NCBI GenBank assembly: GCA_017434455.1 | Contig: JAFRFG010000036.1 | Span: forward strand, 1-64,000 | DNA length: 64,000 nucleotides | Direction: 5' to 3' | Origin: Thermoguttaceae bacterium | Lineage (GTDB): Bacteria; Planctomycetota; Planctomycetia; Pirellulales; Thermoguttaceae | Shown here: positions 15,957 through 47,393 of the stretch, piece by piece | Numbering within the stretch: the first letter of the stretch is position 1 | Layout: each line of letters begins with the position of its first letter | Program-made: the position numbers and the translations under genes | Notes under the pieces: generated by a model | The model's database searches: none | The model's input: only the letters and a program-made list of their open reading frames with translations | Told to the model about the DNA's origin: nothing

Positions 15957-15971
15957 GGCGCGCGCCGGGGG

Positions 15972-16087
15972 TTCACAAAGAGACCTTCCTCTGCCGCGTT
16001 CGAAACGCCGGCAAGCCGATCGGCGATATCGAAAGCCGCATTCAATCGGACGGGCGGGGGTGCCGCTTAAGCGCCATCGCCGCGCGG
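15972..16087 (+). pseudogene. Relic of a Gfo/Idh/MocA oxidoreductase C-terminus
   Basis: This intergenic stretch aligns with bases 21141-21252 of the intact Gfo/Idh gene: the first 75 positions show about 11 mismatches, then a 3-nt length difference, then a 27-nt block (from TGCC to GCGCG) with one mismatch. Translated in one frame it reads HKETFLCRVRNAGKPIGDIE, matching HKENFLYCIRNGGKPISDIE. There is no start, and no coding context before or after, so it is debris from a former paralogue or partial duplication. A promoter for the next gene begins 30 nt downstream. Confidence 0.8.
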
Positions 16088-16117: not shown

Positions 16118-16147
16118 TTGACAACGCCTGTCGCGATCGGGTACAAT
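16118..16147 (+). promoter_or_regulatory. Promoter of the MauE/thioredoxin cluster (TTGACA-N18-TACAAT)
   Basis: A consensus TTGACA at 16118-16123 and TACAAT at 16142-16147 are 18 nt apart. Transcription would begin near 16154, leaving about 60 nt of leader before the ATG at 16217. A reading frame that could nominally start with the TTG at 16118 in fact begins inside the -35 box, which excludes that start. Confidence 0.8.
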
Positions 16148-16216
16148 CGGCGACGGTTTTGGTGGTCCTTTCGTACGATTTTTTTCTCGGCTTTCGATGC
16201 GGAGTGTCAGGTTTCT

Positions 16217-17104
16217 ATGTCCCCTTCCCTTTCCACGCGCGGCGCGATAACAGCGGGGTTTGGCCGCTGGTCTTGCGTCAGAATTCTCGCGGCGCTTGTC
16301 CTCCTTGCCGCCGCGGTGATGAAGACCGCGCAGCTGGCGACGGTTCCCGTGTTGGGGGAAGGGCTTTTTCACGCCCGCTGGTTTGTCTTTTGTCTGATCG
16401 AGTTCGAACTCGGCTTCGCTCTTTGGCTGCTCGCCGGTCCGTTTCCGAAGCCGACGCGCCTTGCCGTGATCGCTCTGTTCTCGGTGTTCGGCCTGGTTTC
16501 GCTCTATAAGGCCCTCTCGGGGGAGGCGAGCTGCGGATGTTTCGGCGCGGCGAAGGTCGATCCCCGGTTCACGGCCGCGCTCGACGCGGCGCTTGCGACT
16601 TTGGCGGTTTTGTTTCCGCCCAAGACGGTCCAAGCGGTACCGACGCCTAAAAAATTCGCGCTTGGCCTTGTTGTCTGGGCGCTCGCCGGCGTCCCGGTCG
16701 TATTAGCGGCGCTTTCGACGCGCACCGAAGCGCTCTCGGCCCTCGGCCGGGTACATATCTCCTCGAACGGCCGGCGGACGATCGAGCTGGAACCGGACAA
16801 GTGGACCGGCGGCGCGATCCCGATTCTCTCCCATATCGAGCCGGCCGAAGTTCGCCGCCGTCTGGAAGAAGGAACCTGGACGGTTCTGTTCTTTCAGCGC
16901 GATTGCCTCGACTGTCAAGGCCAAATCCGTACCCTGGCGCGGCAGCGCGCTTCCGATACCGACGGGGATATTGTCTGCGTGGAACTCCCCCCCTATGGGG
17001 ACCGGACCGCGCTTCCGGCCGGGCCGCTTTATGTCCGGTTAAGTGATCAATACGACTGGTATATCGAAACGCCGGCACTTTTTAGTGCCGTGCGGCTAAG
17101 GTAA
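16217..17104 (+). CDS. MauE/DoxX-type membrane protein fused to a thioredoxin-like domain
   Basis: 295 residues from the ATG at 16217, chosen because the promoter ends at 16147. The first 130 residues hold four membrane helices with the MauE-type signature C106-G-C-F-G after the third. A fifth helix (LALGLVVWALAGVPVVLAAL) precedes a C-terminal domain with C230-L-D-C in the context VLFFQRDCLDCQ, which looks like a thioredoxin-fold active site. MauE-type proteins pass electrons or disulfides across the membrane, so this is probably a self-contained thiol-disulfide relay with its redox site outside the cytoplasm. It heads a group containing two short cysteine-rich exported proteins, which are plausible substrates (inference). 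A frameshifted truncated copy lies at 45258-45845. Confidence 0.75.
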   Translation: MSPSLSTRGAITAGFGRWSCVRILAALVLLAAAVMKTAQLATVPVLGEGLFHARWFVFCLIEFELGFALWLLAGPFPKPTRLAVIALFSVFGLVSLYKALSGEASCGCFGAAKVDPRFTAALDAALATLAVLFPPKTVQAVPTPKKFALGLVVWALAGVPVVLAALSTRTEALSALGRVHISSNGRRTIELEPDKWTGGAIPILSHIEPAEVRRRLEEGTWTVLFFQRDCLDCQGQIRTLARQRASDTDGDIVCVELPPYGDRTALPAGPLYVRLSDQYDWYIETPALFSAVRLR

Positions 17105-17181
17105 ACCACGGCGTTTTAGGGGTGTTTTTGCATTTGTCTCTGAAAATATCAAAATTTTCAGATTTTTATCGACATTACCCA

Positions 17182-17210
17182 TTGCGCGGACAAAAACAGT
17201 GTGTTACACT
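17182..17210 (+). promoter_or_regulatory. Possible promoter (TTGCGC-N17-TACACT)
   Basis: TTGCGC at 17182-17187 and TACACT at 17205-17210 with 17 nt spacing, lying in the 237-nt gap before the cysteine-rich gene. The -35 box matches the TTGCGC type seen elsewhere in the window; the -10 box is weaker. Confidence 0.45.
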
Positions 17211-17341
17211 ACGAATAGTTGGGCGGTTCCGATGTTCCCCATTCCTCAGTTCCGCCCTTTTTCCTCTGTGTCCGTGTCTCGTTTGGGTACAGTGGAGGGT
17301 GTTAATGGGGGGTTCTGTTACCTGATTTGGAGGAGGACAAG

Positions 17342-17701
17342 ATGGGAAGGGTTGTGATCCGACTCGGTCTGTGGGTGTTTGTCTTTTCTGTTGTGCTGTC
17401 GGTTGTTGTCTATGCTGGCCGCGTTTGCAGCAGGTGTGGGAAGGTAAATACACTTGTCACCGCCGGGGGACAGTGCGGGGTGCTGATTCCGGAAGAGGAT
17501 CCGAATCACCCTGGGGTCTACTATAACGTCCTTCATAATGGCAATTGGGCCGAGACGGTGACGTATAAAACCTGCTCACTTGGTGCCGGGATCTGTAACG
17601 AGACTACAGAAGATTTCTATCCCAAATGTGTGGTTTTTATCGGTTCGGTAAATATGTTCTTCTACCCGATCCAACATACGGTTGTTGGTGTGTGTCATTA
17701 A
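17342..17701 (+). CDS. Short cysteine-rich exported protein
   Basis: 119 residues. The start is the ATG at 17342, preceded by the very strong ribosome site GGAGGAGGA at 17329-17337; the in-frame TTG upstream lies at the edge of that site. A clear signal peptide (LGLWVFVFSVVLSVVVYA) is followed by a mature part of about 90 residues with seven cysteines, beginning RVCSRCGK and ending VVGVCH. This suggests a disulfide-rich or metal-binding extracytoplasmic protein. I recognise no family. The stop overlaps a possible start of the next gene (TAATG). It sits between a MauE/thioredoxin-like gene and a large secreted protein, so it may be processed by the former. Confidence 0.72.
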   Translation: MGRVVIRLGLWVFVFSVVLSVVVYAGRVCSRCGKVNTLVTAGGQCGVLIPEEDPNHPGVYYNVLHNGNWAETVTYKTCSLGAGICNETTEDFYPKCVVFIGSVNMFFYPIQHTVVGVCH

Positions 17702-17736
17702 TGACTCGGGAACGACTATTGGGAGAATATGCAGTG

Positions 17737-19014
17737 ATGCGGCAGACCTCGTTCCTCTTGCCGAAAGTTTTTGATATGAAGCCAATTCAGAGATGCCGGG
17801 TTCCGCGGTTTTTCCTCCCAGTCGTCCTGCTGTTGATCGGTGCCCTGTTTGCCGGACAATCTATGGCCGATGATACGGACGCCATGACCGTCGACGCCCT
17901 GTTCGAAAAACATGAAGCGGCGCTGGCGAAGACCGGTCGGATTAAAATGCGATACAAGATCAGGGAGTTCCAGACCGAGAGCGAGTATCTCTGGATCGAG
18001 TCGGGGGAAGAGAAATTCTTGCAGCCGATAGAAGGATCGCCCAATGACAGGGGAGCAACCGGTCAGCCAACTTATTTCACTCACGGCGGCGCTGTTTTCT
18101 CGACATACCTCGACGCTGACCATCTCACTACCTTCGCTCCGCAATCGCTTGCCGAATCGCTGAACAGCGGCCACGGTTTCACGTGTCATCACGCTAACCT
18201 GAATTGGGATTTGCGATCCCCCAGAAGACTAATCTTTTTCTCACCGGTTCTCGGGCAGCAGGGGTCGCGCTCGACCTTAAGAGAAGCTTTTTTCAGCAGC
18301 CCCTGGCAGAGTGAACCGAAAAAATCAACCAATGATCGGGGCGAGGTTCTCTGGACGGTCTTTTCCGCGGCCGAGCCGCTGACCGAAGAAGAGATGTCGC
18401 TGGACAGACCAGAGAAGGGCTGGACGATGGTTCAGTTCAACCAGACCAAAGGGTTCTGGGTTGAGTGTTTCGCGACCTTTGTCCCTGCTATGGACACAAG
18501 TGAAGGGCATTCACCCCAAGTCTTTAGCGGTTGTATCACCGAGTATAAAGATACCGCCTCCGGTCAGGCGGTTCCCGGCAAGGTTATCCACAGCAACTCG
18601 TCGCCGAAGGGGTTTCAGGAGAGACGGGGACGGATTGAGACGCCGGCCGCATGGACGGTCTTGGAGATTCTCGAGGGGACAATCGACGACGATTCGATCC
18701 GTGTCCCCGAGGTTCCGATCCGGCAATACGTCAAGGTGTTTCGCGAAGACCTTCAGGATCCGAACGGAAAAGAAGCCGAAGCTTTCACCCCGGTATCTTT
18801 CTGGGGGAAAGATGACGCCCCCGAAGTGACATTTCTTTCCTCGGAAGAGAAACAGTACGACGAATATGTTCGCCAGCGGTATAACGTGGAACAAACGCCG
18901 CTTCCGGAATCGGGGTTTTCCTCGATACCTCTTTGGCGCGTCGTCCTGCTGGGCGTCGGTATTTTGCTGGTAGCCGCCGCTTTGGTTCTTAGAAGGCGCC
19001 TGTCGGCCGCCTAA
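17737..19014 (+). CDS. Large secreted protein with C-terminal membrane anchor
   Basis: 425 residues from the ATG at 17737, which has GGGAGA about 10 nt upstream. Alternative starts are 17701, overlapping the previous stop, and 17776. A signal peptide (FLPVVLLLIGALFAGQSMA) is followed by a mature region opening AMTVDALFEKHEAALAKTGR, which resembles the start of LolA-like secreted domains. The C terminus has one helix (VVLLGVGILLVAAALVL) and the basic tail RRRLSAA. The architecture parallels the array proteins at 36.9-45.1 kb, without obvious direct identity. It is probably co-transcribed with the small cysteine-rich genes on either side. Function unknown. Confidence 0.7.
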   Translation: MRQTSFLLPKVFDMKPIQRCRVPRFFLPVVLLLIGALFAGQSMADDTDAMTVDALFEKHEAALAKTGRIKMRYKIREFQTESEYLWIESGEEKFLQPIEGSPNDRGATGQPTYFTHGGAVFSTYLDADHLTTFAPQSLAESLNSGHGFTCHHANLNWDLRSPRRLIFFSPVLGQQGSRSTLREAFFSSPWQSEPKKSTNDRGEVLWTVFSAAEPLTEEEMSLDRPEKGWTMVQFNQTKGFWVECFATFVPAMDTSEGHSPQVFSGCITEYKDTASGQAVPGKVIHSNSSPKGFQERRGRIETPAAWTVLEILEGTIDDDSIRVPEVPIRQYVKVFREDLQDPNGKEAEAFTPVSFWGKDDAPEVTFLSSEEKQYDEYVRQRYNVEQTPLPESGFSSIPLWRVVLLGVGILLVAAALVLRRRLSAA

Positions 19015-19067
19015 AAGCGCAGAACGGTTATGAAATGAGGTTTTTCATCCAACACAGGGAGTTAATG

Positions 19068-19274
19068 ATGTCCGAGAAGCTGTTTAATCTGGTTACGTTC
19101 AAACATCATTGGGCGGTTGCCGGTCTCTTTTACATTGGTATCGGCCTGATCCTTCTGGCGATCACCCCGGGGCAGTCGACCACCCAGGCAACCGACGGCT
19201 GCGGCGGCTGCCCCGAAGGACAGGTCTGTGTCCAGGTGGGCGAAGACTATCAGTGTATGTGCCCCGAGGAATGA
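19068..19274 (+). CDS. Very short exported or membrane-anchored cysteine-rich peptide
   Basis: 68 residues from the ATG at 19068; the adjacent ATG at 19065 is also possible. AGGGAG at 19056-19061 is the ribosome site. An N-terminal basic region and one hydrophobic helix (VAGLFYIGIGLILLAI) are followed by a 30-residue tail with five cysteines (DGCGGCPEGQVC, QCMCPEE), resembling half of an EGF-like knot. The stop overlaps the start of the DUF1573 gene (ATGA). The combination of a tiny Cys-rich exported peptide with a DUF1573 gene recalls the NVEALA-peptide loci of Bacteroidota, but I see no sequence match to them. Function unknown. Confidence 0.65.
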   Translation: MSEKLFNLVTFKHHWAVAGLFYIGIGLILLAITPGQSTTQATDGCGGCPEGQVCVQVGEDYQCMCPEE

Positions 19275-19753
19275 TGTCGGCGATAGCGATAAACAAGCGC
19301 CTCGCCGCGAAGCTGCTCTTCGCCGCGGGGGCGGCCGTGCTTGTGTTCGGGGCATTCCGCTTCGTTCGCGGGGTCGTTGATGTCTGCGGTGTTCTTCTCA
19401 GCGACGAGCGCCTCGAGGCGGCTTCGGACAACTGTCAGTTCGGCGAGGTGCCCCGGAGGGAGCGGCTGACGCACACTTTCCGTCTGACCAATCGGGGGAA
19501 TAAGCCGATCTTTATTCGGGACGTCGTCCCGGGGTGCCGTTCGTGCGTCGAGGTCGCTCCCTTCCCCCAAGAGGCGATCGAACCGGGGCAGACGGCCGAG
19601 GTCACCGGGACCCTGCTGACCGACCACCTCCGCGGGCCTGTCCACAAGCCGATGCTCGTCAAGTACGGCCGCCGCCGATCATCGACGCTTCTTCTTTATT
19701 TTGACGCGACTATTATCGAAGGGGAGCCGGTGACGATGCCGGAAGAGCCATAG
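19271..19753 (+). CDS. DUF1573 domain protein, membrane-anchored
   Basis: 160 residues from the ATG at 19271, which overlaps the previous stop by 4 nt. One N-terminal helix (LLFAAGAAVLVFGAFRFV) is followed by a DUF1573-type immunoglobulin-like domain: FGEVPRRERLTHTFRLTNRG, then VVPGCRSCVEV and PGQTAEVTGTLLTD. DUF1573 domains are extracytoplasmic; the C-x-x-C in VPGCRSC may bind metal or form a disulfide. It is the last gene of the promoter-led cluster starting at 16118. Its exact partner is unknown, but the neighbourhood suggests export or maturation of the small cysteine-rich proteins. Confidence 0.78.
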   Translation: MMSAIAINKRLAAKLLFAAGAAVLVFGAFRFVRGVVDVCGVLLSDERLEAASDNCQFGEVPRRERLTHTFRLTNRGNKPIFIRDVVPGCRSCVEVAPFPQEAIEPGQTAEVTGTLLTDHLRGPVHKPMLVKYGRRRSSTLLLYFDATIIEGEPVTMPEEP

Positions 19754-19783: not shown

Positions 19784-19815
19784 GGCCTGCCGCTGGGGAC
19801 GCGCTTCGAGGGGGA
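19784..19815 (+). pseudogene. Second small relic of the Gfo/Idh gene
   Basis: These 32 bases match 21080-21111 of the intact Gfo/Idh gene with only three mismatches (encoding GLPLGTRFEGE there). The following CGCCTTTCTTTT may continue the match after a deletion. In the parent gene this piece lies upstream of the piece found at 15972, yet here it lies 3.7 kb downstream, so the two relics are in inverted order around the intervening cluster. Confidence 0.6.
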
Positions 19816-19897: not shown

Positions 19898-21367
19898 ATG
19901 TCCAGCAATCATACTGCCTCCGGCGGCAATATTTCCCGACGCCGGTTTCTTCAAAATTCGCTGATCGCCTCCTGCGCCGCGGCCGGCGCGGTTCCCTATG
20001 TCTTCTCCTCCCGCGCCCGCGCCGATGAGGGACTCGACCGGATCCGGATCGGGGCGATCGGCTGCGGAGACCAGGGCCGCAACGACTTAAGCTACTTCGA
20101 CCAGATCGCCGATATCCCCGTCATTTGCGATATCGACACGGTCTACGGCCTCGACAAGACCCTCAAGACGGGGATCGGCGTGCACCGCGGCGGCGAGACG
20201 ATCGCCCCGGAAACATGCACCGACTACCGCCGGGTTCTGGACCGGGACGATATCGATGCGGTGATGATCGTCACGCCGGACCATTGGCACACGAAGATCG
20301 CCATCGAGGCGCTGCAGGCCGGCAAACATGTCTTCTGCGAAAAACCGCTGACGCTCACCATCGCCGAGAGCTTAGCCCTGAGAAAGGCCGCCGCCAAGTA
20401 CGGCAAGGTCTTCCAGGTCGGAACGATGCAGCGCTGCTTCCTCAACGAGTTTATGCTCGCGGCGCTGATCGTCCGGGGGGGGCACCTGGGGACGATCAAA
20501 AAAATCACCGTCGATATCGGCGGCGGCGACGTCTCGCCCGAGATCCCCGCGGCCGAGGCCCCCTCGTGGCTGGACTGGAACACCTGGCTCGGTCAGGCGC
20601 CCCAGACCGATTACCTCGCCACGGCGGCCGAGCCGGGCTGGGATGTCGCGGTGGGGCAGATCCCCCGCTACACCCGCGGCCACTACTCGTTCCGCTGGTG
20701 GTACGAGTACGCCGGGGGAAAATTCACCGACTGGGGAGCCCACCATATCGATATCGCGATGTGGGCGACCAATCGGCTCGAAAAGGGGGACGGCCCGGTC
20801 TCGATCGACGGGACCGACTCGGAGCATCCGGTCGAGTTCAAAGACGGTTATCCGACCGTCCATAACCGGTACAATACCGCCAACAGGTTCAACATTTACC
20901 ATACCTTCGCCGACGGAATGGTGATGAACGTCTGCTCCGAATCCCCCGACGGAAACGGCGTCCTCTTCGAGGGGACCGAAGGGCGCATCCACGTCTCGCG
21001 CGGCCGCGTCAAGGGAAAATGTATCGAGGAGGGGATCTCCGATCTGTTCACCGAGGACGACTACATCGCCCTGAACAACGGCCTGCCGCTGGGAACCCGC
21101 TTCGAGGGAGAGTACGACGCGCAGCGCCGCGCCTTTTTGGTACACAAAGAGAACTTCCTCTACTGCATCCGAAACGGCGGCAAGCCGATCAGCGATATCG
21201 AAAGCCATATCCAGTCGCTGCACCTGTGCCACTTAAGCGCCATCGCCGCGCGCCTTAAGCGAACGATCGCCTGGGACTCGAAAAACGAGACGATCGTCGG
21301 CGACGACCAGGCCGCGTCGTTCCTCTCCCGAGAGCAGCGCGCGGGGTTCGAGATTCCCGAGCCGTAA
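19898..21367 (+). CDS. Gfo/Idh/MocA-family oxidoreductase with twin-arginine signal
   Basis: 489 residues. The N terminus is a Tat leader (SRRRFLQNSLIASC) ending near SRARADEG, so the folded, cofactor-loaded enzyme is exported. The Rossmann motif is IRIGAIGCGDQGRND, and the family motif VFCEKPLTLT supplies the catalytic Lys of the EKP signature. The C-terminal domain includes GGKFTDWGAHHIDIAMWA, common in planctomycete and Bacteroidota members acting on sugars. The reaction is NAD(P)-dependent oxidation or reduction of a sugar or cyclitol; some Tat-type relatives are glycosidases, so the chemistry is not certain. A TATAAT box and AGGAG ribosome site precede it. The two downstream GH2 genes suggest a shared glycan pathway. 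Confidence 0.9.
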   Translation: MSSNHTASGGNISRRRFLQNSLIASCAAAGAVPYVFSSRARADEGLDRIRIGAIGCGDQGRNDLSYFDQIADIPVICDIDTVYGLDKTLKTGIGVHRGGETIAPETCTDYRRVLDRDDIDAVMIVTPDHWHTKIAIEALQAGKHVFCEKPLTLTIAESLALRKAAAKYGKVFQVGTMQRCFLNEFMLAALIVRGGHLGTIKKITVDIGGGDVSPEIPAAEAPSWLDWNTWLGQAPQTDYLATAAEPGWDVAVGQIPRYTRGHYSFRWWYEYAGGKFTDWGAHHIDIAMWATNRLEKGDGPVSIDGTDSEHPVEFKDGYPTVHNRYNTANRFNIYHTFADGMVMNVCSESPDGNGVLFEGTEGRIHVSRGRVKGKCIEEGISDLFTEDDYIALNNGLPLGTRFEGEYDAQRRAFLVHKENFLYCIRNGGKPISDIESHIQSLHLCHLSAIAARLKRTIAWDSKNETIVGDDQAASFLSREQRAGFEIPEP

Positions 21368-36871: not shown

Positions 36872-37846
36872 CTATTGCTTCGGCAACGCGGAGCCGGCGC
36901 TCGCGCGGCGCTTCAGGTAAATCCCCGCGGCGATAAGGATGAGCCCTGTAACAACAAAAATCGCGGGGGACGGCGGGTTTCTTGGGGAGGCCGGTTCGGG
37001 GATACCGTAGTACTTCAGGTAGAACTCTTTTTTATTGGGGGGCCCCAGACGAAAGGAACGGATGGTTGTCTGAGTGTGGCGAGTTTTTTCATTATCGCTG
37101 TAGTCGTCCTCTATCAGCTTCGGATACTTTATTCCTTCCCACTCACTATAAGTATATTTAGTATGATTAGTACACTGTTTCTTGAGAACATCGGGGATAA
37201 AAATCTCACGTTCGATCGCCCACTCCTCCAGGGAATAATCATCGGCATTGAAGAACAGTTCACCGCCCAGAACGCGGTCAATCTCGTCCATCATAACGTT
37301 GCTGCGGAAGACCAACCGGTATTGATCCTCATACTTTTCGACCGATTCCACCTTGAAGGTATCCGACTCGAAGAGGTCTCGCAGCCGCAATAGCATGATA
37401 AATACACCGACAAGGTTTCCGGGGGTACCGTCGAATGTAGTATCGCTAACCTGGCCCGAAATGATGCCATCCCGATCATTGAACAACTCAGTGACTGCGT
37501 ACTCCGAAATCCCTCTTTTTTTAGCCAGAGCAAACGAGTACTCAGGGTTCCTCACCGTAAGAGTTTCCTTTATCCCTTGGTATTCTGTAATGTACTCCGT
37601 ATGCCACATTTCGTAGAGGCCTTGATAAACCGAGCGTTCGACAATGGGGAGGGAAGTACCGTCTTGCGCTGTTGTTTCATCCTCGAACTCGACATCGATG
37701 CCCTGTTCGTACAGAGATTCCAGGTAGGCGATACGTTCAAGGATACGCGCGATAAGAGTATCGGCGTCGATGCTCTCCTCCCCGCGCGAGACCGGGCAGA
37801 CAAGCAACAACAAAGCAGTGATAATGACTTGTAGGTTCCTTCGCAT
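36872..37846 (-). CDS. Array protein 1: secreted, C-terminally anchored paralogue
   Basis: 324 residues from the ATG at 37846 (AAAGGG upstream); the frame stays open upstream only because it enters the end of the neighbouring paralogue. Signal peptide: NLQVIITALLLLVCPVSRG. The ectodomain starts ADTLIARILERIAYLESLYE and includes the family core ESVEKYEDQYRLVFRSN and GELFFNADDYSLEEW. The C terminus carries LKYYGIPEPASPRNPPSP, then a membrane helix (IFVVTGLILIAAGIYL) and the basic tail KRRASAGSALPKQ. It is the last gene of the left sub-array and its ectodomain is the most divergent. No enzymatic motif; probably a cell-surface protein. Confidence 0.8.
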   Translation of the reverse strand: MRRNLQVIITALLLLVCPVSRGEESIDADTLIARILERIAYLESLYEQGIDVEFEDETTAQDGTSLPIVERSVYQGLYEMWHTEYITEYQGIKETLTVRNPEYSFALAKKRGISEYAVTELFNDRDGIISGQVSDTTFDGTPGNLVGVFIMLLRLRDLFESDTFKVESVEKYEDQYRLVFRSNVMMDEIDRVLGGELFFNADDYSLEEWAIEREIFIPDVLKKQCTNHTKYTYSEWEGIKYPKLIEDDYSDNEKTRHTQTTIRSFRLGPPNKKEFYLKYYGIPEPASPRNPPSPAIFVVTGLILIAAGIYLKRRASAGSALPKQ

Positions 37847-38032
37847 CTTTATACCCTTTGTTATTATTTCGATTCCACGGATCCTGTGACCGCGCGGCGC
37901 TTCAGGTAAATCCCCACGCCGATGAGAAGGATCCCAACAAGGATAAAGACCGTAGGGGACGGCGGGTTTCTTGGGGGGGTCGGTTCGTCGATACCGTAGT
38001 ACTTCAGGTAAAACTCCTCCTTGTTGGGGGGG
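37741..38032. repeat. Left-array junction repeat, copy 1
   Basis: This block spans the signal-peptide codons of array protein 1, the 17-nt spacer and the anchor codons of array protein 2. It is nearly identical, without length difference, to 38787-39079. Confidence 0.85.
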
Positions 38033-38892
38033 CCGACGTGAAAAGAACGGATGGTCGTGTGATGATGAAGAATTTGGCCGATATCGTGGTACTCGTGTTC
38101 TTCGATCGACTTCGGGTATTTTAAACCCTGCCAATCACCGTAGGTAAAAATCGTTCGATCCGTCCATTGATTCATAGATTCACCAGTGATGGATCCTGTA
38201 TCCACCTTCCAGCCCTCCAGGGCAAAATCTATGACCACTTCCCATCCCTCCAGGGAATAATCTTCCGCGTTAACATAAAGTTCACCGCGAAGAAGCCGAT
38301 TACAATTATCGATGAGAATATCACTCTTGAACACCAATCGGTATTGGTCTTGATTTTTTTCGATCGATTCTGCCTCAAAAGTATCCGAACAAAGAATTTC
38401 CCGCAAAGATAACCATGCGACATACAGACCGACGAGGGATTCCGCGGTATTGGTGAAAAGCCCGTTAAGAATTTGATCCGGCAATACACCATCTCTGTCG
38501 TTATACAAATCATCAAGCGAGTATTGTACGCTTGCCTTTTCTTTTTTCAGAACGAACGAATATCGCGGATTTCTTATTGTTAAGAATTCTTCGACACCGC
38601 CTATCAATGGGGAATCCTGAAATTCCGAAAGATACTTTCGCTGATCCATTTCGAAGAGCCCCTGACAAACGACGCGATGAGCGACCAGCGCGGCGGGGGA
38701 TTCGTCCCCTTCGGTTACCGTTTCCTTTTCGTACTCAACATCGACTCCTTTGTCGTACAACGCCTCAAGATAGTCAACGCGCTCGAGGATACGCGCGACG
38801 AGAGTATCGGCGTCGATGCTCTCCTCCCCGCGCGAGACCGGGCAGACAAGCAGCAACAAGGCAGTGATAATGACTTGTAGGTTCCTTCGCAT
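37864..38892 (-). CDS. Array protein 2: secreted, C-terminally anchored paralogue
   Basis: 342 residues. The signal peptide is identical in sequence to that of array protein 1 over MRRNLQVIITALLLLVCPVS. The ectodomain contains YEKETVTEGDESPA, SEFQDSPLIGGVEE and NPRYSFVLKKEKA, which match array protein 5 (43016-44023) much better than its own neighbours. It has an extra repeat-like insertion (LEGWEVVIDFALEGWKVD). The anchor is YYGIDEPTPPRNPPSP, a helix (VFILVGILLIGVGIYL) and KRRAVTGSVESK. The 17-nt spacer before array protein 1 contains the next ribosome site, so the genes are co-transcribed. Confidence 0.82.
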   Translation of the reverse strand: MRRNLQVIITALLLLVCPVSRGEESIDADTLVARILERVDYLEALYDKGVDVEYEKETVTEGDESPAALVAHRVVCQGLFEMDQRKYLSEFQDSPLIGGVEEFLTIRNPRYSFVLKKEKASVQYSLDDLYNDRDGVLPDQILNGLFTNTAESLVGLYVAWLSLREILCSDTFEAESIEKNQDQYRLVFKSDILIDNCNRLLRGELYVNAEDYSLEGWEVVIDFALEGWKVDTGSITGESMNQWTDRTIFTYGDWQGLKYPKSIEEHEYHDIGQILHHHTTIRSFHVGPPNKEEFYLKYYGIDEPTPPRNPPSPTVFILVGILLIGVGIYLKRRAVTGSVESK

Positions 38893-39079
38893 CTTTTTAC
38901 CCTTTGTTATTATTTCGATTCCGCGGATCCTGTGGCCGCGCGGCGCTTCAGGTAAATCCCCGCGGCGATGAGAAGAATCCCAACAACGATAAAGACCGCG
39001 GGGGACGGCGGATTTCTTGGGGAGGCCGGTTCGGGGATACCGTAATACTTCAGGGAGAATTCCTCCTTATTGGGGGGGC
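38787..39079. repeat. Left-array junction repeat, copy 2
   Basis: Covers the signal-peptide codons of array protein 2, the 17-nt spacer and the anchor codons of array protein 3. See copy 1 at 37741-38032. Confidence 0.85.
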
Positions 39080-39950
39080 CTAGGTGAACCGATTTGTAAT
39101 TCACCGTTATATGCGCGATTCGATCATCGCCATGATCCTGTCTCTCCTCCAGCGTCTTTGGAAATTTCAGTCCTTCCCAGTCGCCGTAAGCAATTTTCAT
39201 ACTGCTTGACCAGGGGGAAGCGGTGACATCGGGGATGAAAAACTCTAAATCGACATCCCACCCTTCTAGAGAATAATCATCGGCGCTGAACAGAAGCACA
39301 CCGCCAACGATACGGTTGTTCTTGTCCATCAAGGCATCGCTGCGGAAGGCCAGACGATACAGATCCCCTTGCTTTTCGACCGACTCCACCCGGAAAGTGT
39401 CGGAACCGAAAAGGTCGCGCAACCGCATCTCGACAACAAACTGCCCCGGCAGAACATAGGGGGTTTCATGAAAGAGACCGTTGAGCGATTGATCGGTCAC
39501 CAGGGCGCTTCGATCATCGCTGTAATTTTCGAGTCCGAACTCAGAAGCGCCCCGGTGTTTCACCAGTACGAACATGTAGTCGGCGTTTCTCGCGTACAGC
39601 CGTTCTTCAATATCCCCGCCCAGGGGAGTTCGTTCTTCCTCGCCGAGAAACCGGATTTGGTGAATCTCGTTAAGTCCACAGAGAACCGAACGCTGGGCAT
39701 ACCTAAGCGGGGAAGCGTCTGTATCCTCTTTGAGCATTTCAAGGTCGTACCGTACATCGATTCCCCGCTTACAAAGGGATTCGAGTTCATCCTGACGCCG
39801 CAAAACGCTCGCGATAAGAGTATCGGCGTCGATGCTCTCATCCCCGCGCGAGACCGGGCAGACAAGCAGCAGGATAACGAGGAAGATCGGCAGGTTCTTT
39901 TTCATCTTCGCGGCCCCCTTGGTCAGAAAACGGCGCATGGATGTTAACAT
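38910..39950 (-). CDS. Array protein 3: secreted, C-terminally anchored paralogue
   Basis: 346 residues from the ATG at 39950, which has a perfect AAGGAGG site. The internal ATG at 39905 also has AAGGGGG, is where the other paralogues start, and may be used. Signal peptide: NLPIFLVILLLVCPVSRGDE. The ectodomain keeps the core (FRVESVEKQGDLYRLAFRSD, LLFSADDYSLEGWDVD) but differs in the segment after LESLCKRGIDVRYD. Anchor: LKYYGIPEPASPRNPPSP, helix (VFIVVGILLIAAGIYL), KRRAATGSAESK. It is the first gene of the left sub-array and follows a promoter at 39981-40009. Confidence 0.8.
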   Translation of the reverse strand: MLTSMRRFLTKGAAKMKKNLPIFLVILLLVCPVSRGDESIDADTLIASVLRRQDELESLCKRGIDVRYDLEMLKEDTDASPLRYAQRSVLCGLNEIHQIRFLGEEERTPLGGDIEERLYARNADYMFVLVKHRGASEFGLENYSDDRSALVTDQSLNGLFHETPYVLPGQFVVEMRLRDLFGSDTFRVESVEKQGDLYRLAFRSDALMDKNNRIVGGVLLFSADDYSLEGWDVDLEFFIPDVTASPWSSSMKIAYGDWEGLKFPKTLEERQDHGDDRIAHITVNYKSVHLGPPNKEEFSLKYYGIPEPASPRNPPSPAVFIVVGILLIAAGIYLKRRAATGSAESK

Positions 39951-39980
39951 TCAAACCTCCTTCGCCGGGGATATATGGAG

Positions 39981-40009
39981 TATATAACACACCATCACAG
40001 GGAAGTCAA
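39981..40009 (-). promoter_or_regulatory. Promoter of the left sub-array (TTGACT-N17-TATATA)
   Basis: Minus-strand TTGACT at 40009-40004 and TATATA at 39986-39981, spacing 17, about 30 nt before the first ATG of array protein 3. Confidence 0.65.
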
Positions 40010-40083
40010 TATCCCGGCGGGTTTCTTCTTTTTAGAAATTACGATAACCCCAGCCCCACAAAAAGAGATGCGGGGCGGCGCGT

Positions 40084-41988
40084 TTATTCCCGCGGCCTTT
40101 CCTCCTCGGCGGTGAATCCCTCGGGGAAGACCGCGTCGATATCCTCTTGTGTGAGGTGGTAAATATAGACCGTATAGCCGAGGACCTCTTGAGGGGTGAA
40201 TTGCCAAAAATAGCGGTAACGCGATTTCTCGGCGTACAGTTCACACACGCGCGCGGCGTACCAGCCCGGCTCGGGCTCGGCGGGGAGTCCCTTGTTGTGC
40301 CACGGAACATTGATCAATTCCGGCAGGTAGTCCGACCAGATCGAAATTTTGATCTGGTCGACTTCGGGGTGTCGGCGGCACCATCGTTCTAAGGTGAAGC
40401 AGTCTTGTCCCCAGTCGATATTGGAATCGAGCAGATGTCTCGGCCCGTTGAGCGGGCCGGCGTCGAGGAAACGAATCACGGCCGGGCCTTCGGGCGGCTT
40501 GGGAGCCGCCGGGGCGGCCGGGGTCGGCACAACGGCCGCCAGTTCGTTGAAGAAGGCGATGCTGTGAGGATAGACCCACAGCGAGCCCCCCGCGCCGATA
40601 AGAAGAAACAGGACCGTCAGGAACCGGACGATCCGAGAGCTCTTCGGCGCGCCGGCGCGAACCGACGGCGTGAACGCTCGCGCCGGCTTCGATATCCAGA
40701 TCAGAAGGAAGGGGATCGCGGGGATCATATAGCGGGAATGGACCGAGAAACCGGTCTGGGAACTGACCAGCAGCAGGATCGCCGCGGCCGGCAGCAGAAG
40801 CGTCAGCTCGTCGCGCCAGGGGGCGTTGTATCCGCGCGGGAAAAAGGTGCAAAACAGCGCCAGGAGAAACAGTGCCAAAGTCCCCAGCGGGGTCTTGAGG
40901 AGGAGGGCGTAGAAATAGTAACCGAACCAGCCGTGTTCGGCCCATTGCCCGCGCCAGTACGAGGGGAGGCCGGTCTCGAAATCAAGCCGCTGGGTATCGA
41001 TTCCCTGAACATAGTCGCTCGGAAGGGGAACGGGGAGATACCCCAAGAGCGTCTCGAACCGATTGCCGCTGCCGTCGAACCGATTCGCCAGAGCGCCGGG
41101 GCCCTTTGTCCGGCCGTCGGGACTTGTCTGGAGCGGGCGGCCGGTAAAAAGGGTGGACTGAAATTGGTAGTTCCGAAGCGGTTTTCCGATGCCGCTGAAG
41201 GCGTAGCCGGCGTTGATTACAAGTACGCTCCCCAGCGCGATTAAAAGAAGCCGAAGCGGCCGCAGGCGCGAGAAAAAGGTATCGTTCTTCGGCCGGTCTT
41301 CCCCCGCCCCGCGGAAAGGAATGGCGTAAAGAACCGCCAGAAGAAGAAACACCGGGTAGAAAACCAACAGCGTAAACTTGCACAGCTGGGCTCCCCCCAG
41401 GGCGACCGCCGCCAAAAACGTGTGAAAACCGTTCGGACTCTTGAGCCACCGGTGGAAGAAATAAACGCTCAGCAGCCCCATCGAGGCGGCGTGCGCGTCG
41501 GGCATAATCGTCGCGGCGTGGCCTAGAAAAAAGGGGGAGGTTCCCGCGAGAATCAGCGCCGTCAGACCGGCCCACGGCGCGCGGTAGATGTTTTGGGAAA
41601 ACAGCAGCACCACCACCAGACCCGTGACGGCGAAGATCAAACAGCCCAGACGCGCCGTGACAAACCTGGGGAAGATCGTCTCCCGGTTCTCCCGCATGTA
41701 GGCGTTGCCCATCTCGAACTCTTTGCGCAGGGCGGCGTAATTCGAGAACGTCCGCCAGGAACTGTGGTCCTCGAAAAAAAGAACCACCGGAAGAGCCGCG
41801 GTCATGCGGACCAGCGGCGGGTTGACGCGGTAAAGCGCGAACGACGAAAGTTCCCAATGGCTGGCGCCGGCGGCCAGATGGGCCGACTCGCTTTGGACGG
41901 GGGCATAAAGGACGATATTCCCGATAAGCAGCGCCGTAAAGGCCGCGATCAGGAACAGGTCAATCCATCGTTTATATCTCGTGTACAT
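40084..41988 (-). CDS. GT39-type membrane glycosyltransferase (PMT/ArnT-like)
   Basis: 634 residues with about eleven membrane helices. The first extracytoplasmic loop (VQSESAHLAAGASHWELSSF, then YRVNPPLVRMTAALP) matches the conserved acidic loop of dolichyl-phosphate-mannose protein mannosyltransferase and ArnT-like enzymes, in which the acidic pair is catalytic. The C-terminal soluble region (HLLDSNIDWGQDCFTLERW) is a form common in planctomycete members. These enzymes transfer a sugar from a polyprenyl-phosphate carrier to an exported protein or lipid. The start overlaps the end of array protein 4 by 17 nt, placing it as the last gene of the right sub-array operon. Substrates may include the array proteins (inference). 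Confidence 0.8.
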   Translation of the reverse strand: MYTRYKRWIDLFLIAAFTALLIGNIVLYAPVQSESAHLAAGASHWELSSFALYRVNPPLVRMTAALPVVLFFEDHSSWRTFSNYAALRKEFEMGNAYMRENRETIFPRFVTARLGCLIFAVTGLVVVLLFSQNIYRAPWAGLTALILAGTSPFFLGHAATIMPDAHAASMGLLSVYFFHRWLKSPNGFHTFLAAVALGGAQLCKFTLLVFYPVFLLLAVLYAIPFRGAGEDRPKNDTFFSRLRPLRLLLIALGSVLVINAGYAFSGIGKPLRNYQFQSTLFTGRPLQTSPDGRTKGPGALANRFDGSGNRFETLLGYLPVPLPSDYVQGIDTQRLDFETGLPSYWRGQWAEHGWFGYYFYALLLKTPLGTLALFLLALFCTFFPRGYNAPWRDELTLLLPAAAILLLVSSQTGFSVHSRYMIPAIPFLLIWISKPARAFTPSVRAGAPKSSRIVRFLTVLFLLIGAGGSLWVYPHSIAFFNELAAVVPTPAAPAAPKPPEGPAVIRFLDAGPLNGPRHLLDSNIDWGQDCFTLERWCRRHPEVDQIKISIWSDYLPELINVPWHNKGLPAEPEPGWYAARVCELYAEKSRYRYFWQFTPQEVLGYTVYIYHLTQEDIDAVFPEGFTAEEERPRE

Positions 41989-42997
41989 CGTTCTTCGCGC
42001 CGTTGTTCGTATGGCTGCGCGCCCCGGCGGCGGCGCGGCGCTTTAGGTAAATCCCCATGCCGATGAGGATGAGTCCCACCGCGATAAAAATCGCGGGAGA
42101 GGGCGCGTTTTTCGGGGAGGCCGGTTCGGGGATACCGTAGTACTTCAGGTAGAATTCCTTCTTATTGGGGGAACCCAAGTGAAAAGATCGGATAATTGTC
42201 CGAGAATGACTAACTATCTCATTTCCGCTAAAGCGGCTTTCCTTCGACTTCGGATACTTAACACCTTCCCAATCACCATAGGTGTATCTGAGCTGACGAG
42301 TCCATGGAATCACGCGGTCAGGGATAAAAAACTCACCTTGATAATTCAATTCCTCCAAAGAGTAATCCTCGGCGTTAAAAAACAATTCTCCTCCCAGAAT
42401 ACGATTGCAATCATCCTCCAGAATGTTGGAGCGGAAGGCCAGCCGGTATTGATTCTCCCGCTTTTCGACCGATTCCACCTTGAAATCATCCGATTCAAGA
42501 AGATCCCGCAGCCGAGCCAGTCCGACATATAACCCAACAAGAGCTTTAGGGGTATCATCTATCAGACCATTAGTAGTCTGATCAGGCAAAACGCCGTCTC
42601 GATTGTCGTATAAATCAAGAACGGCATACCCCGAATTCCCCGGCCCCTTAGTTACAATAAACGAATACTTCGGGTTCCTCACGATAAGGGCTTCCTCGTA
42701 ACCCTCTTCCAGGGGAGAAGGCCGATGGTCGGAAAGAAATTTCAGACGTCTCAGTTCGTAGAGACCCAGGTAAACCACGCGCTGAGCGTGAGGATTTACC
42801 GGCTCTTCATCCCCTTCTTCCATTCGTCCATCTTCAGTTTCGACATCGATACCCTGTTCGTACAGAGACTCAAGATAGGTGATACGTTCCTTGATGTGGG
42901 CAATGAGCGCATCGGCGTCAGCGGCCTCCTCACCGCGCAAAGCGCAGCAGACACCCATCAGCAGGAAAGTGATGACGACTTGAATGTTCGTTCGCAT
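41972..42997 (-). CDS. Array protein 4: secreted paralogue with an altered C-terminal tail
   Basis: 341 residues. Signal peptide: NIQVVITFLLMGVCCALRGE (right sub-array type). The ectodomain is sister to array protein 6 (YELRRLKFLSDHRPSPLEEG, VLDLYDNRDGVLPDQ, EELNYQGEFF). The anchor is mosaic: GIPEPASP of the left type followed by KNAPSPAIFIAVGLILIGMG of the right type. After KRRAAAG the usual SAESK end is replaced by ARSHTNNGAKNDVHEI, reading into the glycosyltransferase gene, so a recombination or deletion joint lies near 42020. Transcribed with 43016 and 44042 upstream. Confidence 0.82.
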   Translation of the reverse strand: MRTNIQVVITFLLMGVCCALRGEEAADADALIAHIKERITYLESLYEQGIDVETEDGRMEEGDEEPVNPHAQRVVYLGLYELRRLKFLSDHRPSPLEEGYEEALIVRNPKYSFIVTKGPGNSGYAVLDLYDNRDGVLPDQTTNGLIDDTPKALVGLYVGLARLRDLLESDDFKVESVEKRENQYRLAFRSNILEDDCNRILGGELFFNAEDYSLEELNYQGEFFIPDRVIPWTRQLRYTYGDWEGVKYPKSKESRFSGNEIVSHSRTIIRSFHLGSPNKKEFYLKYYGIPEPASPKNAPSPAIFIAVGLILIGMGIYLKRRAAAGARSHTNNGAKNDVHEI

Positions 42998-43182
42998 CTT
43001 GACGACCCTCTTTTGTTATTTCGATTCCGCGGATCCGGCGGCGGCGCGGCGCTTGAGGTAAATCCCCATGCCGATGAGGATGAGCCCCACCGCGATAAAA
43101 ATCGCGGGAGAGGGCGCGTTTTTCGGGGAGTCCGGCTCGGCGATGCCGTAGTACTTTAGGTAGAATTCCTTCTTGTTGGGGG
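42898..43182. repeat. Right-array junction repeat, copy 1
   Basis: Spans the signal-peptide codons of array protein 4, the 18-nt spacer and the anchor codons of array protein 5. It is nearly identical to 43923-44208. Confidence 0.85.
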
Positions 43183-44023
43183 AAACCATCTGAACCGATT
43201 GGAACGTCACTTGGTAATCGATGACTTCACCGGAACTGTGTTCTATGTGACATTCAATGGACTTCGGGTATCTAATCCCCTGCCACTGACCATAGGTATA
43301 GCGGGTTCTGTCCGTCCATTGTTTCGATGGTTTGTCTACATGCAGAAAGGAGAATTTACCGACCACATCCCATCCGACGACGGAATAATCTTCCGCGCTG
43401 AAATATAGTTCACCGCGAACCAGACGATTACACAAGTCGATCGGAACATCACAATGGAAAACCAGCCGGTACTCGTTCTGTTGTTTTTCGACCGACTCAA
43501 CCTTAAAAGTGTCCGAACAAAGAAGTTCCCGCAGCGACAATTCGACGATATACAGACCAACGAGGGACTGGGCGGTTTCTTCGAACAGACCATTCGTATT
43601 CTGCTCCATCATAATACCGTTCCTGTCGTTGTACAGATCTTCCATTGCGTATAACGTGTTCGCCTTTTCTTTATTCAGAATAAACGAATATTTCGGGTTT
43701 TTCACCTCTAAGGTTTCCTCGACACCATCCTTTAAAGGGGAATCACGGGATTCGGAAAGATACTTCCATTGATCCAATTCGAAGAGATCGTGATAAACGA
43801 CGCGATGAGCGATCCGCTCCTCGGCAGGGGATTCGTCTCCCTCCATTACCTTTTCCTTTTCGTACTCGACCTCAATCCCCTTGTCGTACAACGACTCAAG
43901 ATAAGCAACGCGCTCGAGAACATGGGCGATGAGCGCATCGGCGTCAGCGGCCTCCTCACCGCGAAGGGCGCAGCAGACACCCATCAGCAGGAAAGTGATG
44001 ACGACTTGAATGTTCCTTCGCAT
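43016..44023 (-). CDS. Array protein 5: secreted, C-terminally anchored paralogue
   Basis: 335 residues. Signal peptide MRRNIQVVITFLLMGVCCAL is of the right sub-array type. The ectodomain (EYEKEKVMEGDESPAEERIA, LSESRDSPLKDGVEE, NPKYSFILNKEKA, SKQWTDRTRYTYGQWQG) is the counterpart of array protein 2 in the left sub-array. The anchor (YYGIAEPDSPKNAPSP, IFIAVGLILIGMGIYL, KRRAAAGSAESK) is instead identical to that of its neighbour, array protein 6. This mismatch between ectodomain and end relationships is the key sign of segment exchange. The ribosome site lies in the 18-nt spacer. Confidence 0.82.
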   Translation of the reverse strand: MRRNIQVVITFLLMGVCCALRGEEAADADALIAHVLERVAYLESLYDKGIEVEYEKEKVMEGDESPAEERIAHRVVYHDLFELDQWKYLSESRDSPLKDGVEETLEVKNPKYSFILNKEKANTLYAMEDLYNDRNGIMMEQNTNGLFEETAQSLVGLYIVELSLRELLCSDTFKVESVEKQQNEYRLVFHCDVPIDLCNRLVRGELYFSAEDYSVVGWDVVGKFSFLHVDKPSKQWTDRTRYTYGQWQGIRYPKSIECHIEHSSGEVIDYQVTFQSVQMVSPNKKEFYLKYYGIAEPDSPKNAPSPAIFIAVGLILIGMGIYLKRRAAAGSAESK

Positions 44024-44208
44024 CTTGACGACCCTTTCTTGTTATTTCGATTCCGCGGATCCGGCGGCCGCGCGGCGCTTTAGGTAAATTCCCATGCCGA
44101 TGAGGATGAGCCCCACCGCGATAAAAATCGCGGGGGAGGGCGCGTTTTTCGGGGAGTCCGGCTCGGCGATGCCGTAGTACTTTAGGTAGAATTCCTTCTT
44201 GTTGGGGG
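43923..44208. repeat. Right-array junction repeat, copy 2
   Basis: Covers the signal-peptide codons of array protein 5, the 18-nt spacer and the anchor codons of array protein 6. See copy 1 at 42898-43182. Confidence 0.85.
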
Positions 44209-45079
44209 GACCGAGGCGAAAGGAACGGACGGTCGTGTGATAATGGAGGGGTTTATTATCAAACAAAGAGTTGTGTTCCTTTGTCTTTGGATACTTAATC
44301 CCGTCCCAGTCGCCATAAGTATATTTATTCTTACGAGACCACGGGATCGAGGGGACATAGGAGGAAAAAAATTCACCTTGGTAATTCAGCTCCTCCAGAG
44401 CGTAATCCTCCGCGTTGAAAAACAATTCTCCGCCAAGGATACGATTGCATTTATCTTCCAAGACGTTGCTGCTGAAGGCCAGCCGGTATTGATTTCCGCG
44501 CTTTTCGACCGATTCCGCCTTAAAGGTATCCGAATCAAAGAGGTCTCGCAGCCGACAGCCGCCAATATAAAGTCCAGACAACGCTCCGGTGGAACTGTCC
44601 AGCAGACCGCTCGAATTCTGGTCATCCAAGATTCCGTCTCGATTGTCGTATAAATCAAGAACGGAATACGCAGATTTTCCACTATTGTTAACCACGGCAA
44701 ACGAATACTTCGGATTTCTCACGATAACCCCTCCATCGTAACCCTCATCCAGAGGGGATGGTCGGGTTTCCGAAAGAAATCGCAGCTGTCTTAGTTCGTA
44801 GAGGCCTTTATAAACCACTCTTATAGCCATAGGATCTTGAAGTTCTTCTTTCCCTTCTTCGATCTCCCCGCCTTCAACTTCAACCTCAATCCCCTTGTCG
44901 TACAACGACTCAAGATAAGCAACGCGCTCGAGAACATGGGCGATGAGCGCATCGGCGTCGGGAACAAGGGTGTCGGTATCGGCGGCCTTGGGGTTTTCGG
45001 CAAACACCGTGCCGATCGACAGCAGGACGGCGGTGAGCAAAATCCGCGCGGCGAGATTTCTCCTGATCGGTTTTATCAT
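44042..45079 (-). CDS. Array protein 6: secreted, C-terminally anchored paralogue
   Basis: 345 residues. It has its own signal peptide (LAARILLTAVLLSIGTVFAE) and a short Asp/Thr insert before the shared VPDADALIAHVLERVAYLES. The ectodomain is sister to array protein 4 (LRFLSETRPSPLDEG, VLDLYDNRDGILDDQ, EELNYQGEFF). The anchor is identical to that of array protein 5. It is the promoter-proximal gene of the right sub-array: a TTGCGC/TATATT promoter lies 64 nt upstream and GGAGG precedes the ATG. The differing leader suggests that the internal copies were homogenised with each other but not with this outer one. Confidence 0.82.
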   Translation of the reverse strand: MIKPIRRNLAARILLTAVLLSIGTVFAENPKAADTDTLVPDADALIAHVLERVAYLESLYDKGIEVEVEGGEIEEGKEELQDPMAIRVVYKGLYELRQLRFLSETRPSPLDEGYDGGVIVRNPKYSFAVVNNSGKSAYSVLDLYDNRDGILDDQNSSGLLDSSTGALSGLYIGGCRLRDLFDSDTFKAESVEKRGNQYRLAFSSNVLEDKCNRILGGELFFNAEDYALEELNYQGEFFSSYVPSIPWSRKNKYTYGDWDGIKYPKTKEHNSLFDNKPLHYHTTVRSFRLGPPNKKEFYLKYYGIAEPDSPKNAPSPAIFIAVGLILIGMGIYLKRRAAAGSAESK

Positions 45080-45142
45080 ATATCAACCTCCGGCAAAAAA
45101 CGCGGCGGGGCCGGGAACCTGAGATCCCCCCGCGCCATTTGT

Positions 45143-45171
45143 AATATACCGCGCCGTAATCGCCGGCGCAA
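45143..45171 (-). promoter_or_regulatory. Promoter of the right sub-array (TTGCGC-N17-TATATT)
   Basis: Minus-strand TTGCGC at 45171-45166 and TATATT at 45148-45143, spacing 17, between the pseudogene at 45258 and array protein 6. Confidence 0.65.
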
Positions 45172-45257
45172 CATGAGGAACAAGACGGAATCGGATCTTT
45201 TTCAGAAAGCCCGCGGGGCGAAAGCGCCGCGGCCCGGCGGAAAGGCGATGAAAAAAG

Positions 45258-45845
45258 TCACTTCAGCCGCGCGGCCGGCAATAGTTTTGGGGTCTCGATA
45301 TACCAGTCGTATCGGTCCGTAAGTTTGACGTGAATAAGATTGTCCGGAACGCACGACTCTTCCCCATAGGGGGGAATCTCCACGCAGACGACATCGCGGC
45401 CGCCGCGCCCCGCCAGGGTTTGAATCTCGTGTTGACACTCCCGGCAGTCGTGCTGGAAAAAAAGAACTGTCCAGCGCCCCTCGCTCAGCCGCTTCCGCGC
45501 TTCGGCCGGTTCGATATAGGAAAGGATCGGGATCACGCCGCCGGTCCATTTGTCCGGTTCCAGATCGATCGTCCGACGGCCGCTGGAGGAAAGATGCTCC
45601 CGGCCGAGGGCCGCCAGAGGGTTTGTCCGCGCCGACAGCGCCGCGGCGGCGGCCGGGATGGTGCAAACCGCCCAGATAACGGCGGTCAGCGCCGTTTTTT
45701 TGACCGACAGCGAAGCGCCGCCGGCCCTCGGCCGGGAACAAAGCGCCAGGATCACCATCGCCGCGTCCAGCGCGGTCGTGAACCAGGGATTGACCTTCGC
45801 CGCGCCGAAACAGCCGCAGAAGCGCCGCGCCCGAGAGGGCTTTAA
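45258..45845 (-). pseudogene. 5'-truncated, frameshifted copy of the MauE/thioredoxin-like gene
   Basis: From CGCFGAAKV onward this frame is closely homologous to the gene at 16217-17104 (shared RRTIDLEPDKWTGGVIPILS, the C-x-x-C site FFQHDCRECQ, TDRYDWYIETP). Upstream, the homology continues for only about 18 more bases (AAAGCCCTCTCGGG) and in a different frame, with one extra base between ALSG and CGCFG. The four membrane helices before that point are missing. The reading frame could begin at 45878, but those codons have no counterpart in the intact gene. It is therefore a decayed duplicate; the thioredoxin-like half could still be made only if some new start were used. Confidence 0.82.
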
Positions 45846-45926
45846 TAATAGAGGGTAGTCCCCCTTTTCGCGTTTCACACGCGTGAAGGGCTGCCGAACG
45901 AGGCCCTTGCTTTCGCAACACCATAA

Positions 45927-47204: not shown

Positions 47205-47393
47205 AGGGAGATCCTCCTCCGCTGCCATTTCCACGGGAACTTCTGCTGTCAGCCATTGTTAGCTAGCACGCGTGGCCGCCATAGCGAACAAATCTTGTCG
47301 ACAGGTCTTGTGTACACGTTGTAAACATGCAACCGTCGATAAAAAAAATGCCGCGGCACACGCTTCACCACTAAACGATAACAAACGCCGATC

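Follow-up and report, generated by a model that had tools for sequence, protein, structure and literature searches.

A MauE-thioredoxin and DUF1573 gene cluster with variable cysteine-rich exported proteins in planctomycetes: a candidate extracytoplasmic thiol-redox module

We analysed a stretch of 64,000 nucleotides (nt) from a Thermoguttaceae bacterium (assembly GCA_017434455.1, contig JAFRFG010000036.1; Planctomycetota, order Pirellulales), hereafter the window, in which five plus-strand genes lie together behind a promoter-like site. This site, TTGACA-18-TACAAT (16118..16147), is an 11/12 consensus match only, and one site of this grade was found against 1.2 expected in shuffles. The first gene (16217..17104) encodes a MauE-thioredoxin-like membrane fusion (MauE-Trx) of 295 amino acids (aa), with CGC at residues 106–108 and CxxC at 230–233. 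It is followed by gene A (17342..17701), which has an SD-like (Shine-Dalgarno-like) GGAGGAGG ahead of its ATG and encodes an exported Cys-rich protein of 119 aa with 7 Cys and an N-terminal hydrophobic segment; by P3 (17701..19014, alternative starts at 17737 and 17776), a secreted protein with a signal segment and a C-terminal membrane anchor; by gene B (19065..19274), an exported Cys-rich peptide of 69 aa (68 from 19068) with 5 Cys; and by the gene of a membrane-anchored DUF1573 protein with a CxxCV motif (19271..19753). A and P3 meet in TAATG (17699-17703), while B and the DUF1573 gene share the four bases ATGA (19271-19274), and the genes from A to DUF1573 are the tight part of the cluster. 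The sequence-only reading of this DNA had listed the five genes with these coordinates, Cys counts, motif numbering, and overlaps, and all are present as it gave them. By a strict criterion (a signal-like segment, and five or more Cys that make up at least 5.5% of residues), A and B are the sole Cys-rich open reading frames (ORFs) on either strand of the window.

MauE-Trx passes the Pfam threshold for PF07291 (E=1.2e-7, 32.5 bits against a cut-off of 27), and all 15 aligned homologues keep its C106, C108, C230, and C233. Matches were found in 25 of the 99 genomes searched as relatives, the window's own genome among them with four, and in 48 of the 297 genomes of the window's order, with up to nine per genome; the distribution is thus patchy and multi-copy. 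The DUF1573 protein is clearly assigned (PF07610, E=6.2e-14, 52.2 bits against a cut-off of 26.1), and it also resembles the NCBIfam OS_HP2 (seleno)protein family at a level under that family's cut-off (E=9e-7). P3 matches no Pfam or NCBIfam family. It does match (phmmer, 1.6e-7) a P3-like protein in one relative's locus, L212; the family of P3-like proteins in turn resembles a LolA-like family (hhalign, 94.7%). Since the structure model of P3 is poor (predicted local distance difference test, pLDDT, of 38), its likeness to LolA comes only through this family-level profile similarity.

Gene B defines a family of its own. Six sequences align, the others being 36-44% identical to the window's B, and 16 of the 119 family genomes searched contain it, with 36 matches, 30 of which were fetched as loci and examined. 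In 22 of the 24 loci that extend 450 nt or more beyond B, counting the window's own, gene B is followed by DUF1573, and CxxC is present in 21 of these 22 DUF1573 proteins, often as GCxSCVEV or a close variant. Just upstream of B, a P3-like or LolA-like gene is found in 18 of 29 loci. Identity within the family is higher in the leader (37%) than in the mature part without the shared Cys (29%), the leader being the more similar part in 280 of 349 pairs, in a comparison biased by a set gathered with a profile that includes the leader. Four long members (in L248, L251, L252, and L265) carry repeated Cys-rich modules after the same leader. Neither A nor B reaches a family cut-off in Pfam or NCBIfam, and seven Cys-rich relatives likewise reach none (NCBIfam for all seven, Pfam also for four). 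An EGF-like domain or adhesin was considered for gene B and set aside, as the Pfam score of 15.8 bits lies under the cut-off of 21.5.

To what extent these genes belong together was assessed in other planctomycete loci. In 41 discovery loci, scored with a loose definition of Cys-rich exported ORFs, such an ORF lies on the same strand in 24 and on the opposite strand in 4. The strict criterion was fixed after these loci had been viewed and before validation loci were scored. For validation, 40 new loci from 24 genomes were picked by MauE homology alone, and two with less than 3 kb downstream were set aside, leaving 38; the controls were 80 one-strand windows of 10 kb from 20 hand-chosen 20-kb regions, some of them in genomes of other classes. 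A same-strand strict Cys-rich ORF is present in 24 of 38 validation loci against 2 of 80 control windows (Fisher 3e-13), where loci of one genome are not independent and 13 of the 24 genomes have at least one Cys-positive locus. On the opposite strand, such ORFs occur in 5 of 38. Among the neighbouring families, whose hidden Markov models (HMMs) were rebuilt in rounds from the discovery and validation loci, without the controls, DUF1573 is found in 28 of 38 loci and in none of the 80 controls (cleaned families), C39 in 6 of 38 and none of 80, and LolA-like genes in 9 of 38 and none of 80. The LolA-like count comes from a rebuilt HMM, a first one having been dropped for contamination by DUF1559 pseudopilin-like proteins.

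DUF1573 accompanies the Cys-rich ORF in 23 of 24 Cys-positive validation loci and, among discovery loci, in 17 of 17. Another set of 44 named loci with room, which partly overlap earlier places and include other orders, hold a Cys-rich ORF in 16 cases (in 3 there is one on the other strand), and DUF1573 is present in all 16. The arrangement in L185 runs Cys-rich, P3-like, B, DUF1573, esterase-like, MauE, PMT_2-like; L183 has two units of this type with variations, and L134 and L212 have the same parts in different order. Within the window's order, the gene combination is conserved beyond chance. It is therefore very improbable that unrelated exported genes simply collected here in a variable region or mobile island. 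Such an origin would fit the patchy distribution, the fragments of an oxidoreductase gene on both sides of the cluster (described below), and the GC content at third codon positions (0.55 in A, 0.64 in P3, and 0.71 in B, under the 0.84-0.87 of the three flanking genes measured), yet it is contradicted by the controls, since the same combination recurs in the validation loci, the same parts cluster in relatives, and several of the domains are fused. In L141, three Cys-rich genes that closely resemble one another are grouped in the vicinity of MauE and DUF1573. In L116 (8660-9151; own contig C3, 158659-159150) a 163-aa exported protein with CAPACAPAP-like repeats has 34 Cys after the signal segment and no Pfam match.

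Two other neighbours bear on the question of what the exported proteins are for. DUF1559 pseudopilin-like genes lie near 19 of 38 validation loci against 1 of 80 controls, and PMT_2-like genes near 8 of 38 against 1 of 80. On one hand, these counts, along with the tandem duplicated Cys-rich copies of L141, are in keeping with a surface structure, in which the Cys-rich proteins would be disulfide-cross-linked parts of the envelope or an appendage, assembled by the cluster with DUF1559 and PMT_2 proteins in the assembly system. On the other hand, presence in only 48 of 297 genomes of the order and the variability of the small proteins are a misfit for an essential envelope part, and no polymer or repeat motif common to the small proteins was seen. 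We consider such a structural role unlikely.

Domain fusions tie the conserved parts more closely. MauE is fused to DUF1573 in the window's own genome (contig C5, L034; PF07291 1.4e-7, PF07610 5.3e-15), in L070 with both domains under cut-off, and, by HMM, in 11 of 38 validation loci. C39 is fused to DUF1573 in L041 (3.5e-15 and 1.4e-17) and L211 (2.3e-14 and 6.4e-16). These fusions link the redox membrane protein, DUF1573, and a leader peptidase. Loci with C39 (Form I) have Cys-rich proteins of mostly ~140-190 aa, and in several of them the signal segment is followed by a GG-type leader, such as LTNVELVAIRGG (L136), LTLDEMEKLYGG (L041), LAAAEAAALRGS (L120), and, in L211, LSNRDMSQVTG and LSDRQMSRIFG. 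By a strict pattern, composed after examples had been seen, GG leaders occur in 4 of 16 C39 loci and in 0 of 64 without C39 (Fisher 0.0012); among controls the pattern occurs in 1 of 20 regions, in a match that looks spurious. The Cys and His that we take to be catalytic in C39 are kept in 16 of 16 and 15 of 16 proteins, respectively, as counted by eye in an alignment. Because the C39 protein carries an N-terminal membrane segment, it probably works outside the cytoplasm. In NCBIfam, the C39-DUF1573 protein resembles NHLM_micro_ABC1 (E=5e-7) and C39_FapD (E=3e-5), both far under cut-off. Form II loci have no C39, mostly shorter Cys-rich proteins, adjoining LolA-like or DUF1559 genes, and often the MauE-DUF1573 fusion. 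Of the two forms, the window's locus comes closest to Form II, with no C39 match in the window and no GG-leader pattern seen by eye in A or B.

Given this gene content, we propose, with a probability of about 0.6, that the cluster serves as an extracytoplasmic thiol-redox module dedicated to the oxidative folding of variable Sec-exported Cys-rich proteins. Proteins A and B, with their N-terminal hydrophobic signals, would be translocated by Sec with their cysteines still reduced, and the MauE half (membrane, CGC) and the thioredoxin-like half (CxxC) of MauE-Trx would supply them with oxidising equivalents or rearrange their disulfides. MauE and MauD mature methylamine dehydrogenase (mau cluster), and the role suggested for MauE-Trx is modelled on that proposed for MauE in the case of the disulfide-rich small subunit of this enzyme. 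The membrane-anchored DUF1573 protein, with a CxxC of its own, would be a substrate-side partner made in step with B, as the 4-nt overlap suggests, while P3, with its distant LolA/RseB-like resemblance and C-terminal anchor, may be a chaperone or carrier made in step with A. The products would be variable disulfide-rich exported proteins. A disulfide role for MauE-Trx is suggested by its invariant cysteines, by its weak thioredoxin match, by the role in disulfide formation that has been proposed for MauE (PMC7794033, in its passages on MauE), and by the selenocysteine form of DUF1573. The latter domain is listed as having a selenoprotein form with UGC (PMC9312934, in a table), which points to a redox role.

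Several observations weigh against this proposal. The thioredoxin-like half of MauE-Trx is only weakly similar to thioredoxin chains (best PDB match E=0.0032, by profile), and a Pfam scan of the protein gave no thioredoxin family match. Gene A is an orphan, with no homologue found by sequence search in 98 other genomes and nothing found by Smith-Waterman comparison with three positional counterparts; its position and type recur in relatives, its sequence does not. By the strict criterion, 14 of 38 validation loci have no Cys-rich ORF, and in other planctomycete classes such an ORF accompanies MauE-Trx in just 1 of 17 cases, which looks spurious. There, MauE-Trx has other settings, as in L078 and L079 (Planctomycetes bacterium syqfu, CP087563.1, a complete genome), where it sits in an apparent type II secretion/pseudopilin operon, so that it is not tied to Cys-rich peptides everywhere; the copies of the operon in L078 and L079 are very similar to each other. 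The sequence-only reading, which expected the small genes to be conserved with MauE and DUF1573, is thus borne out within the order (23 of 24 loci, and B followed by DUF1573 in 22 of 24) and fails outside it and for the sequence of gene A. It had also placed the five genes under one promoter; the promoter-like match exists, but 237 nt separate the MauE-Trx stop from gene A, so that MauE may or may not share a single transcript with the remaining genes. Its idea of a dedicated pathway maturing disulfide-rich peptides fits the gene data, though we infer the biochemistry from sequence, namely the direction of electron flow, the substrates and their redox state, cleavage and secretion, the chaperone role, and the final use of the products.

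The CxxC motifs could equally serve reduction, which leads to a different view of the same genes. MauE-Trx would then keep the cysteines of A and B reduced for metal binding, with DUF1573 as a reductase partner, and A and B would act in the periplasm, as metallochaperones or as scavengers of the metallothionein type. The small proteins do contain CxxC and CxC pairs, which agrees with this, as does the redox motif of DUF1573, and LolA-like carriers could move a ligand. We regard a metal-handling module as improbable, given that Cys spacing is highly variable among loci, unlike a fixed metal site, and that no metal-transport gene is among the neighbours scanned, which were not put through a systematic metal-gene screen.

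The proposed oxidative-folding module has partial counterparts in known systems. As in mau, a MauE-family membrane protein and a thioredoxin-like partner stand beside a small Cys-rich exported protein, but here MauE is fused to the thioredoxin-like domain, and DUF1573 and LolA-like proteins are added. We set aside a simple mau cluster, as the Pfam-scanned proteins of the window, to which this search was confined, include no dehydrogenase subunit. The nearest published precedent in the sources consulted is the set of MauE clusters of decRiPPter, where, in the passages on MauE, three Streptomyces candidate families of ribosomally synthesised and post-translationally modified peptides (RiPPs) have MauE, one of them also MauD, in the neighbourhood of predicted precursors that contain 8 Cys or more, and a part in precursor modification is proposed (PMC7794033). 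The earlier statement that no description was known was therefore too strong, and the planctomycete cluster is a variant of something proposed before, since MauE beside Cys-rich precursors is in print for Streptomyces. The two differ in phylum and in DUF1573, C39, PMT_2, and LolA-like genes, which those passages do not mention. Our literature search found no description of the present gene combination in the library that it covered. In some relatives' loci, the C39 domains, which keep the Cys and His, and the GG-type leaders of the precursors are like those of bacteriocin transporter-peptidases and FapD-type C39 proteases; these C39 domains differ in following an N-terminal membrane segment, in being fused to DUF1573, in the lack of an ATP-binding cassette (ABC) part, and in the Sec-like signal ahead of the leader in their precursors, and the window's own locus has no C39.

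More tentatively, planctomycetes may export by Sec a wide and so far unrecognised range of variable disulfide-rich proteins, perhaps acting in antagonism or signalling, and fold them with a dedicated apparatus of MauE and DUF1573. In one branch, a membrane-anchored C39-DUF1573 protease might remove a GG leader, located after the Sec signal, once the precursor has been translocated. If true, such cleavage would invert the topology of the bacteriocin transporter-peptidase scheme. DUF1573 is widespread and of unknown function. It gains a context here through its fusions, with a thiol-redox membrane protein in some loci and with a leader peptidase in others, and through its place directly after one Cys-rich family in 22 of 24 loci. 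The analysis also points to small exported proteins that family libraries overlook and to the enzymes that probably fold them, which makes the idea testable.

The surroundings of the cluster show possible traces of rearrangement. Fragments of the oxidoreductase gene at 19898-21367 flank the cluster, with 15970-16086 matching 21139-21252 of that gene (81%) and 19784-19815 matching 21080-21111 (91%). Because the flanking BatD-like and oxidoreductase genes are on different contigs in congeneric genomes wherever both were found, an insertion is not demonstrable by empty-site comparison. The fragment upstream of the cluster comes from a later part of the gene than the fragment downstream, an order like that left by a permuted insertion or rearrangement.

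A second locus lies on the minus strand of the window (36872-47234) and is perhaps a decaying copy. It contains a second MauE-Trx, a remnant without the N-terminal part (45258..45878; 59% aa identity to residues 101-295, 71% nt), a PMT_2-like membrane protein (40084..41988; PF13231, E=1.6e-6), and no Cys-rich ORF by the strict criterion. Six LolA-like secreted, C-terminally anchored paralogues (HMM family LOL2, 36872..45079, no Pfam match) stand on the two sides of the PMT_2 gene, at 36872-38134, 37864-38892, and 38910-39950 on one side and at 41972-42997, 43016-44023, and 44042-45079 on the other. Foldseek comparison of one paralogue's moderate model (pLDDT 62) with the PDB gave LolA3, LolA, RseB, LprG, and LolB, the top match having E 9.6e-8, probability 1.0, and template modelling (TM) scores of 0.33/0.43; the scores are low because the model is only moderate, and most top matches are LolA-type. 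The paralogues match LolA, RseB, and LprG in fold and differ from them in being many and in having a C-terminal membrane anchor. The N-terminus of a LolA-like protein in locus L072 (7726-8745) resembles the signal of type IV pilins (GFTLVELLVV), as though the start of a pseudopilin had been joined to it.

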